This document shows, one piece after another, positions 26,644-29,440 of a DNA stretch of 64,000 nt. Within the stretch, counting starts at the first letter, position 1; the number at the start of each line of letters is the position of its first letter. Where the stretch lies: positions 1-64,000 of the forward strand of contig CAMVHR010000007.1 of NCBI GenBank assembly GCA_947167345.1, in the 5' to 3' direction. Under the pieces are notes generated by a model. That model ran no database searches. It was given only the letters and a program-made list of their open reading frames with translations, and was not told the DNA's origin. The translations under genes and the position numbers were made by a program. Source of the stretch: an uncultured Treponema sp. (GTDB lineage Bacteria > Spirochaetota > Spirochaetia > Treponematales > Treponemataceae).

Positions 26644-26667
26644 TGAGAATATTTGACGGGGATATAT

Positions 26668-27207
26668 ATGAGCATGATTGGTTGTGACGGTATTGTTATG
26701 ACAGCAGATATTGATTCAAAAATAATCAATATAATAAAGAATGCTGTTTCATATTGCTACATCATATCTCCGTCTATATGCTTATGGCCTTTACTGGAAC
26801 GTGAATTTGAAAAATCCATCGGTTCAAAAAAGAATATAACTGTTATTGCTGAAAAAACAGAAGATTATGAGCAACTGTCTGTGTTTAAAATCTTGGCGGA
26901 AAAATATAAAGTTTCAGTATTCCTTGTAGAAAATCTTCATTTTAGTTTGTTTTTTAACGAAAATGAGAATTTTTTTTCGTCAATGAACGCGCATGATAAT
27001 TCTCGCGAGGATACTTTTGAATTGGGAATCTATTCTCAGCAACCTGCTGTTTCTGCAAGATTAAAGTCAAAAGTTGTTGACGATGAACTTATGAAATTCT
27101 GTACCCGTTTTACATGTTCTCCTGTTGAGACCGTTCCTTCTGATATTGATATGGATTATGATAATAATGCTGATGAAGATGATGCTCCTGTAGAAATTCC
27201 CTGGTAG
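26668..27207 (+). CDS. Degenerate PLD-like protein
   Basis: A 179-residue soluble protein. The fold pattern resembles one half of a phospholipase D-type domain: IINIIKNAVSYCYIISPSICLWPLLEREF, KKNITVIAEK, and VENLHFSLFFNENENFF, where PLD-like proteins have LHxKxxxxD. The catalytic Lys is missing, so nuclease or lipase activity is unlikely. The C-terminus is acidic (DIDMDYDNNADEDD). ATG 26668 with GGGG upstream is chosen over TTG 26653. It follows the ABC-F gene by 24 bp. Its last 52 bp overlap the end of the facing NrdD-like gene. The family call is tentative. Confidence 0.65.
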   Translation: MSMIGCDGIVMTADIDSKIINIIKNAVSYCYIISPSICLWPLLEREFEKSIGSKKNITVIAEKTEDYEQLSVFKILAEKYKVSVFLVENLHFSLFFNENENFFSSMNAHDNSREDTFELGIYSQQPAVSARLKSKVVDDELMKFCTRFTCSPVETVPSDIDMDYDNNADEDDAPVEIPW

Positions 27208-28982
27208 GACAAAAAGGCGTCAATTTCATCTACAGTATGTATTCGTGCCGCTTCTTTGTTTTCAGTCGTATAAAAGATGACTGTTGGTGTCATGAAAACT
27301 CCCCGTTCTGCTGCAATATTGAGTCCTTTTTTTGTATCTACGCATATTTCAGTTCCCTGAATGTTTTTCTTAGAAATATATTGCTGAACAGAAGGACATT
27401 TTTTACAGTTTTTACTTGTAAACAATTCATAGGTAAAATCTTGAAATAATGAAGGCTGTGTTTCTGTAGAGAGTGGATTTTTTCTGAGTATTTCTTCTTT
27501 TTGTGTTTCTGAAAAGTTATCCAATAACTGAAATGATTCTGCAGTTCTTGTATATTGCTCTGTCTGCATGTTACAAATTGGACATGTAACATGACTTCCT
27601 GAAAAGTATCCGTGTTCAGGACATATTGAGTATAATGGGCTGAAAGTAAAATAAGGAATATTATGCTGCGTTGTGATGCGCTTTATAATGCTTTTATATG
27701 TTTGCCAGTCATTTATTTGATTCCCTGTATACAGACATAAGGGTGATGTTTCAGAATAATACTTTGCAAACTGCTCATGATGCTTTATCGCAGTGAATAA
27801 TTCAAATTCTGCATCTGCAGGAAAATTTGTTCCGGATGAATAATATGCACAGCTTGTACCAGAATGTTTTATTCCTTCATAAAGTTCTAAGTCCTTATTT
27901 GCAAATAAAAAGTTTAATGGATGCATATAATTTCTGGCAATTAGGAAAGATGTATTGTCTTTTATGTATTTGAGGATTTTCTCAGAAAGAACCTTGCCTG
28001 CAGAACTAACAATGCTTTCATTAATTAAATTCATGCAAGTTTCATTAAGTCCGAATGGTATTAATAAATCATTGCTGCCATAATCAGAATCAAGAAATTG
28101 TTCAGAAAAATCTGCCTTAAATTTTCGGTTGGATAGGATTTTTCTTATTGTTGCCAAAAGCCTTTCCAGATTTTCAAAAAAGGCCGTCTCAGATGATGCC
28201 CTGTATGCCAGAACTGGTAAATTGAGTGCTACAGCAGATTTTATTAAAAGGGAATGTGTGTTTACAAGTGTTTTTTTATTACGAAAAAGAGGCAGACCGT
28301 ATTTTTCCGTAATCTTCAATAATGATACTGTATTTTTATTGTTCCAGTTGAAATTTTCATCAACGGCATATTCTGGAATTGTATATAAGAATGCTCTTCC
28401 TGAACGGTCTCCCTGTTCCATTACAGCAAGGAATCCTTTATTAAGCATGTCCATTTCTGCCTGACATTCTCGATATGTATAATCTTGAATGGAAGTGCCA
28501 ATAATGGCCTTCTTGCTTTTTAAATGAGCAGGACATGTCCAGTCAAAGCCTATGTGGATGCAGGATTGAGGGCATAAACTTTGGGAATGAATGTTTATAG
28601 TATATAAAAAATTTTGTAACAGTTGAAATATTTCTTTATCTGTCAAATTTGAATTTTTTATATAAGGAGCAAGGAGGGTATCAAACGATTGTATTGTCTG
28701 AATGCCAGAACACTCATTTTGGATGCAGCTTATTGTTGTTTCAATCTGCTGCAATGCACTTTCAAAATCTGCTGCAGAATATACTGAAATTTTATTTTTA
28801 ACTGAAATGCCATTTTCAATGAGCTTATTCAATGACCAGCTGATGCTGTAGCATGTATTGCCAGTAACATCATGGACATATATTGAATTATCCGATAGAG
28901 CTTTTTTTTCTTCGCTTTCTGAATTCAACTGTAAAAGAGATGTCCATTCCGGAAAGTCATTTTGCGGAGGAAGCGTATTCAA
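27156..28982 (-). CDS. NrdD-like protein without radical sites, fused to a C-terminal redoxin
   Basis: A 608-residue relative of class III (anaerobic) ribonucleotide reductase. NrdD-like stretches: SIYVHDVTGNTCYSISWSLNKLIENG (32-57), IQNECSGIQTIQSFDTLLAPYI (87-108), a PLFRN strand, and the zinc-site region YFTFSPLYSICPEHGY...CPIC (444-470). Missing are the ATP-cone, the MCCRLQLD-type segment with the thiyl cysteine (replaced by a short linker near 236-260), and the glycyl-radical RxCGY loop, which aligns with RTAESF (479-484). Residues about 517-592 are a glutaredoxin/thioredoxin fold with CKKC (526-529) and cis-Pro TPT (565-567). The TTG start overlaps the nrdR stop and has GGAGG 5 nt upstream. 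Confidence 0.8.
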   Translation of the reverse strand: MNTLPPQNDFPEWTSLLQLNSESEEKKALSDNSIYVHDVTGNTCYSISWSLNKLIENGISVKNKISVYSAADFESALQQIETTISCIQNECSGIQTIQSFDTLLAPYIKNSNLTDKEIFQLLQNFLYTINIHSQSLCPQSCIHIGFDWTCPAHLKSKKAIIGTSIQDYTYRECQAEMDMLNKGFLAVMEQGDRSGRAFLYTIPEYAVDENFNWNNKNTVSLLKITEKYGLPLFRNKKTLVNTHSLLIKSAVALNLPVLAYRASSETAFFENLERLLATIRKILSNRKFKADFSEQFLDSDYGSNDLLIPFGLNETCMNLINESIVSSAGKVLSEKILKYIKDNTSFLIARNYMHPLNFLFANKDLELYEGIKHSGTSCAYYSSGTNFPADAEFELFTAIKHHEQFAKYYSETSPLCLYTGNQINDWQTYKSIIKRITTQHNIPYFTFSPLYSICPEHGYFSGSHVTCPICNMQTEQYTRTAESFQLLDNFSETQKEEILRKNPLSTETQPSLFQDFTYELFTSKNCKKCPSVQQYISKKNIQGTEICVDTKKGLNIAAERGVFMTPTVIFYTTENKEAARIHTVDEIDAFLSYQGISTGASSSSALLS

Positions 28983-29440
28983 TGTTCTCCTCCGAGTTTT
29001 TTTACTTCTTCTATAAATTCATCGAGATTATTAAAATGTTTGTAAACGCTTGCAAAACGGATGTATGCAACTTTATCCATTGTATTAAGGCGTCCGAGTA
29101 CTATTTCGCCAATATCTGAGGTTGCAATTTCTCTGGTTGCCTTTCCTATTTTGTAAGCTTCATCTTCTATTTCGATGACAAGCTGATCTATCATATCAGT
29201 AGCGACAGGACGCTTTTCCAATGCCCTTTCGATGCCTTTTGCCAGCTTTTCTCGCTCAAACGGCTGCCTTCTGCCATCTCGCTTTATTACCATAAACGGT
29301 TTTTCTTCAATTCTTTCATAACTTGTAAATCTGTATCCGCAACATAGGCATTCCCGTCTTCTTCGAATGCTTTCTCCGTTTGCCATTGTACGAGATTCAA
29401 TTACTTTATCATCAAGTTTTCCACATGAGGGGCATCGCAT
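28979..29440 (-). CDS. nrdR: Ribonucleotide reductase regulator NrdR
   Basis: A 153-residue repressor: zinc ribbon MRCPSCGKLDDKVIESR with CLCCGYRFTSYER, then an ATP-cone (about 49-139) that senses ATP/dATP. NrdR binds NrdR boxes to shut off ribonucleotide reductase genes. It overlaps the end of ecfT by 40 bp and the NrdD-like start by 4 bp. This position links the NrdD-like protein to nucleotide metabolism. I did not find a NrdR box pair in this window. Confidence 0.97.
   Translation of the reverse strand: MRCPSCGKLDDKVIESRTMANGESIRRRRECLCCGYRFTSYERIEEKPFMVIKRDGRRQPFEREKLAKGIERALEKRPVATDMIDQLVIEIEDEAYKIGKATREIATSDIGEIVLGRLNTMDKVAYIRFASVYKHFNNLDEFIEEVKKLGGEH

Follow-up and report, generated by a model that had tools for sequence, protein, structure and literature searches.

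The gene directly downstream of nrdR in the window, a 64,000-nucleotide stretch of DNA from an uncultured Treponema sp., encodes a pseudoenzyme under selection, that is, an intact and constrained open reading frame (ORF) that is preserved in several species without catalytic residues. The protein, here termed pseudo-NrdD, is probably a catalytically dead class III ribonucleotide reductase (RNR) that has been retained as a redoxin carried by a scaffold of NrdD origin, as sequence comparison and structure prediction suggest, and an enzyme retired from the synthesis of DNA building blocks appears to have been given another job. Cytomegaloviruses are known to encode RNR homologues without catalytic activity (PMC5469499). 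Neither a bacterial class III RNR that is dead yet maintained by selection across a clade of species nor the split class III RNR described below, in which a redoxin subunit carries the glycyl domain, was found to be reported in the literature searched; as that search left out most subscription papers, the novelty of both is provisional.

Gene and locus

Pseudo-NrdD of this gut/rumen Treponema starts with TTG behind a good Shine-Dalgarno sequence, and the four bases TTGA are shared by its start and the stop of nrdR (Table 1), which confirms the link to nrdR drawn in an initial annotation of this DNA. The gene order is lnt-bioY-ecfA-ecfT-nrdR-pseudo-NrdD. The origin from NrdD proposed in that annotation is well supported, as the Pfam profile PF13597 (NRDD) matches residues 23-499 with E=3.4e-65 and 221 bits against a cut-off of 26, and an AlphaFold model superposes on T4 NrdD. 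The Pfam search also agreed with the annotated absence of an ATP-cone, and its redoxin matches were weak. The protein matches NCBIfam NrdD models but scores far below the equivalog cut-offs of PRK08270 (332 of 548 bits) and TIGR02487 (188 of 326 bits), and a phmmer search of PDB sequences with pseudo-NrdD gave no match. NrdR boxes sought in the window were matched at chance level only.

The gene overlaps by 52 bases (27156-27207) with a convergent plus-strand gene (26653-27207; 184 aa, unassigned product). A GASSSSALLS tail, identical in the orthologue L033, was considered as a functional motif and rejected, as it lies inside this overlap and may owe its conservation to the antisense frame.

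Table 1. Positions in the window of the pseudo-NrdD gene, its parts and nrdR
Feature	Coordinates	Strand	Remarks
pseudo-NrdD/redoxin gene	27156..28982	-	608 aa; orthologue L033 65% identical, dN/dS 0.124
nrdR	28979..29440	-	TIGR00244 181 bits; upstream of and overlapping pseudo-NrdD
FPEW motif, residues 10-13	28944..28955	-	FPEW/FPQW in 38/43 non-degenerate NrdDs; FPGW in short degenerate forms
Y45-S46	28845..28850	-	position of Thermotoga NrdD Tyr124-Cys125; Cys replaced by Ser, Lys46 in L033
NrdD half-barrel with alpha-A/alpha-B region, residues 79-208	28359..28748	-	sole NrdD part kept in short forms
variable linker, residues 236-250	28233..28277	-	stands for finger-loop MCCR segment
substrate-phosphate motif site, residues 340-356	27915..27965	-	EATPAES lost; reads ARNYMHPL
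zinc site, residues 452-471	27570..27629	-	C454, H457, C467, C470 kept
degenerate glycyl loop, residues 477-486	27525..27554	-	RTAESF; Gly position is Glu482 (His482 in L033); pLDDT < 50
redoxin domain, residues 517-595	27198..27434	-	CKKC 526-529, T-cisPro 565-566 (T565-P566)

Catalytic residues lost and kept

Residue equivalences were taken from a sequence alignment of pseudo-NrdD with 15 non-degenerate NrdDs. Both radical sites are lost, as the initial annotation had claimed, and the losses are common to the orthologue in genome G037 (locus L033). The radical glycine of the RxxGY loop is replaced in both long forms, the loop of the window protein opening with R479-T-A-E and reading as the initial annotation had given it (Table 1). 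Both long forms have lost the finger-loop cysteine segment (MGCR/MCCR/SCCR) from between residues 235 and 250, and the short linker already recognised in place of the thiyl-cysteine segment has only 4 of its 15 residues identical between them. The reductive cysteine of beta-A (T4 Cys79, Thermotoga Cys125) is replaced as well. A shifted alignment in which C44 stood in for this residue was rejected, as the C44 position is occupied by Tyr in L033. The ligands of the zinc site are kept, in line with the annotated match of the N-terminal and zinc-site regions to class III RNRs.

The same positions are nearly invariant in active-looking proteins, with YC at beta-A in 48 of 50 distinct NrdDs, MCCR in 43/43 and RIVGYY in 39/39 glycyl ORFs. 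One of the two YC exceptions (L192) reads GYCTGWS and was a miss of the pattern; the other (L146, genome G043) reads YG and is an otherwise active-looking NrdD with Gly for the reductive Cys (GYGAGWS). The FPEW/FPQW motif of treponemal NrdDs precedes the ATP-cone; the homologues read from Coriobacteria and Betaproteobacteria do not have it, but the degenerate forms keep it.

Predicted structure

The AlphaFold2 model of pseudo-NrdD, built on a 30-row alignment, has an overall pLDDT of 82, with about 95 in the redoxin and less than 50 in residues 478-490 (the glycyl loop) and 494-513. Its best structural matches are all class III RNRs, among them the two enzymes proposed for comparison in the initial annotation, T4 NrdD (1h78; Z 27.3, rmsd 2.8 over 415 residues) and Thermotoga maritima NrdD (4coj; Z 26.6), and class I RNRs and other glycyl radical enzymes come next with Z of about 18. 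Pseudo-NrdD so has the fold of NrdD and, to judge from its sequence, would lack the chemistry of NrdD.

Active relatives at the nrdR locus

Treponema sp. CETP13 (L034) has its genes arranged as lnt-bioY-ecfA-ecfT-nrdR-nrdD, followed by a glycyl and redoxin gene and nrdG2, and because its lnt-bioY-ecfA-ecfT-nrdR neighbours are the same, pseudo-NrdD can be placed at the position of this split nrdD. The CETP13 NrdD (709 aa) stops after the zinc site, the next ORF (183 aa) carries RIVGYY and then the redoxin, and NrdG2 scores over the cut-off of TIGR02495. The split class III RNR was recognised at L034:3410-6827, L005, L194 and L198 and at about 40 loci read directly; in this form NrdD ends past the zinc site, a second, small ORF joins RIVGYY to a redoxin (CPNC), and nrdG2 adjoins. 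The profile was matched in 19 of the 20 genera of the family, in much of which the enzyme is split in this manner. Of 11 genomes without NrdD1, 9 are also without a class I/II RNR, so that the split enzyme is probably their sole RNR. The tail of the split NrdD and the head of the subunit both resemble charged helices and are perhaps a docking site.

The enzyme also occurs unsplit. A genome of the same genus (G169) has a single active-looking frame of 849 aa (L192:752-3298, minus strand), flanked by nrdR on one side and on the other by a radical-SAM ORF that takes the place of nrdG2. The frame carries FPEW, the ATP-cone, GYCTGWS, MCCR, EASPAES, the zinc site, RIVGYY and a redoxin (CSKC), and a similar full-length NrdD-glycyl-redoxin chain was found in Coriobacteria (L035). 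The initial annotation had held that pseudo-NrdD gained a redoxin in place of its C-terminal end, and neither part of this claim stands. The redoxin follows the degenerate loop in the order also seen in active relatives, and these relatives already join the glycyl loop and the redoxin as one unit, in a separate subunit or in one chain; the redoxin is therefore ancestral. Pseudo-NrdD matches the unsplit forms (L035, L192) in the distance between its last zinc Cys and the Arg of the glycyl loop and has no remnant of the tails of split subunits, which makes an origin by re-fusion of split genes less likely.

Pseudo-NrdD resembles class III RNRs of the NrdD2/NrdDh type (T. maritima NrdD, 4coj; PRK08270), for which a thioredoxin-type reductant is expected, in its ten-stranded barrel and the position of its zinc site. 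Unlike T. maritima NrdD, it has no ATP-cone, finger-loop CCR, reductive Cys, glycyl residue or phosphate motif, and it carries a redoxin in the same chain. With the split (L034, L005) and fused (L192) enzymes it shares the nrdR locus, the FPEW N-terminus, the redoxin family and the order NrdD-glycyl loop-redoxin, but pseudo-NrdD retains no catalytic residue and no activase gene, whereas these enzymes have the full set of residues and an activase gene at each locus that was read to a sufficient length. Its redoxin has the CxxC, cis-Pro and thioredoxin fold of NrdH/YruB-type glutaredoxins and thioredoxins, which, however, stand alone, while that of pseudo-NrdD is joined to a dead NrdD and reads CKKC rather than the CPNC/CPHC of the relatives. 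The catalytically inactive R1 homologues of herpesviruses (e.g. cytomegalovirus M45/UL45, PMC5469499) are likewise RNR large subunits that lost catalysis and were kept for another function; yet they are viral and derived from class I, act against host signalling, and have neither a redoxin nor a link to bacterial nrdR.

Conservation and reduced forms

A second long form, in Treponema sp. RGIG5076 (G037, L033), has the same neighbours, no stops and the same 608-aa architecture. A frameshift or chimera artefact, a possibility that the initial annotation had raised, was rejected with this independent genome, as the intact orthologue shares the losses and these are hence due neither to chance nor to artefact. 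The ratio between the two long forms (NG86, Table 1) corresponds to a dN of 0.249 and a dS of about 2, which is saturated; it is 0.131 in the NrdD part and 0.054 in the redoxin, which at 86% identity is the best conserved part.

In six further genomes, each of another species, nrdR is followed with the same four-base overlap by a short form of 271-274 aa (that of G054 is cut by a contig end), composed of an N-terminal FPGW, the equivalent of the half-barrel (residues 79-208) and the redoxin. Ratios among the short forms range from 0.07 to 0.15, and the pair G128/G068, at an unsaturated dS of 0.50, gives 0.072 for the NrdD part and 0.087 for the redoxin. A model of the short form (pLDDT 84) has Z 12.8 to 4coj in its NrdD part and Z 12.1 to thioredoxin 1v98 in its redoxin part (residues 189-273). 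A dimer is less plausible for most short forms, as 9 residues of their helix alpha-A are missing. CxxC, cis-Pro and FPxW are invariant in all seven degenerate sequences aligned, and the structural residues of the half-barrel around alpha-A/alpha-B do not vary either. The CxxC motif reads CPNC or CPHC in 39/39 active subunits and CKKC, CRKC or CTKC in the degenerate forms, which suggests that the redox partner may differ. The purifying selection and the retention in a clade of eight species argue for a function other than ribonucleotide reduction, as the initial annotation had suspected.

In the RpoB tree all eight species with degenerate forms make up a single clade (95/96) that excludes the 15 sampled genomes of the split type, and the NrdD1 tree agrees on this clade (97/94) and places G169 in a neighbouring group with moderate support (82/86). 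It is therefore most likely that catalysis was lost once and that trimming followed. A tree built from the NrdD2-type genes was uninformative because of the excessive length of the degenerate branch. Outside the clade, redoxin-only ORFs lie directly after nrdR in two genomes without the split RNR, G044 and G001 (L110:3327-3584, minus strand, and L187; CSKC and CPRC), and most other NrdD1-only genomes read have nothing recognisable there. Most of the genomes are metagenome-assembled and some carry errors, such as a stop in the RpoB frame of G037, and the loci were read in part of the 127 other matching genomes of the genus.

RNR complement of the host genomes

The window genome (G000) contains two PF13597 genes, that of pseudo-NrdD and a canonical NrdD1 (PRK09263, 926 bits), which lies with NrdG (TIGR02491) on contig C2; the canonical nrdD and nrdG that the initial annotation had thought worth seeking elsewhere in the genome are thus present. 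Searches of G000 and G037 for a class I/II RNR (PF02867), for NrdG2 over the cut-off and for an intact glycyl/redoxin ORF found none, the last search matching only the pseudo-NrdD gene itself. These absences are strong for G000 (96% complete) and weaker for G037 (78%). By these profile matches the NrdD1/NrdG pair is the only candidate for a working RNR in the window genome. Upstream of a canonical nrdD1 (L001:1067-1082) there is an NrdR-box-like palindrome, CCACTATATGTAGTGG, which is suggestive only, as at least two matches were obtained in 18 of 200 shuffles.

Proposed function and alternatives

Pseudo-NrdD would descend from an active enzyme of the NrdD2 type that had a glycyl loop at its C-terminal end, a redoxin of its own and the activase gene nrdG2 beside it at the same nrdR locus. 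With dNTP synthesis presumably covered by the NrdD1/NrdG pair of the same genome, the lineage has lost nrdG2 and, within the protein, the ATP-cone, the substrate-phosphate motif, the radical glycine and both catalytic cysteines (thiyl and reductive), and the protein was kept all the same. Its surviving activity, as predicted from motifs and model, would be thiol-disulphide exchange via C526/C529, and the NrdD-derived part may serve as a scaffold for dimerisation or docking and so deliver the redoxin to a partner, possibly one encoded by, or regulated with, the nrdR operon. RNR alpha subunits are thought to dimerise via alpha-A and alpha-B, with the exception of a monomeric subset of class II (PMC9531940). 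The simplest mechanism would be a redoxin on a docking or dimerising scaffold; what the data show are the losses, the conservation, the purifying selection on NrdD part and redoxin, the single-clade origin and the trimmed form.

It is possible, if rather unlikely, that selection acts on the redoxin and tolerates the NrdD part as a fusion remnant that is being lost. Between the long forms the redoxin is indeed the part with the lower ratio, and long, short and redoxin-only forms at nrdR make up a reduction series; however, the NrdD stub of the short forms is constrained too (in G128/G068), keeps FPxW and is predicted to be a folded domain. That the whole gene is a decaying, non-functional leftover of a second anaerobic RNR in which stops have not yet accumulated is improbable. 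The loss of the activase and of all catalytic residues, the variation of active-site positions between the two long forms (S/K, E/H and the linker) and the complete absence of the gene from many NrdD1-only relatives are as expected of a relic, but 608 codons have stayed open in two species at a dS of about 2 with dN/dS of 0.12, the short forms are similarly constrained, and CxxC, cis-Pro and FPxW have been maintained across the clade. An RNR still active in trans with another glycyl subunit, as might be imagined from the separate glycyl-radical subunit of the relatives, is contradicted by the sequence and extremely improbable: G000 and G037 have no such subunit, and pseudo-NrdD also lacks the phosphate motif as well as the thiyl and the reductive cysteine.

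An nrdR-related regulatory role is possible. Pseudo-NrdD might bind nucleotides or NrdD/NrdR and modulate dNTP synthesis by redox state; the nrdR overlap is constant in the degenerate forms, and the region kept, alpha-A/alpha-B, corresponds to the dimer interface at which Thermotoga NrdD binds its specificity effector (PMC4493059). Such a partnership with NrdR or NrdD1 is nevertheless doubtful, as the active ancestor already had the linkage to nrdR, the sequence alignment shows no conservation of the T. maritima effector residues Gln161/Gln218 even in active relatives, and mixed dimers are unlikely with an NrdD1 of another subfamily. A little more doubtful still is a version in which pseudo-NrdD is a redox- and nucleotide-responsive partner of the nrdR unit, the half-barrel sensing nucleotides or dimerising and the redoxin passing thiol status to NrdR or NrdD1; if it were true, a dead RNR would control a living one.

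The series of split active, fused active, dead long, dead short and redoxin-only forms at nrdR amounts to a natural dissection that tells which parts of an RNR can persist by themselves. A match to the NrdD profile, even one well over the PF13597 cut-off, need not mean an RNR, which matters where anaerobic dNTP synthesis is predicted from genomes. The split class III RNR would allow a direct test of how NrdD2 enzymes meet their reductant. Pseudomonas is known to have a split class II RNR (PMC4520616), and in Polaromonas (L038:5299-5766) a betaproteobacterial NrdD is split too, the next small ORF bearing the glycyl loop TRVMGYHRPVASFN without a redoxin.
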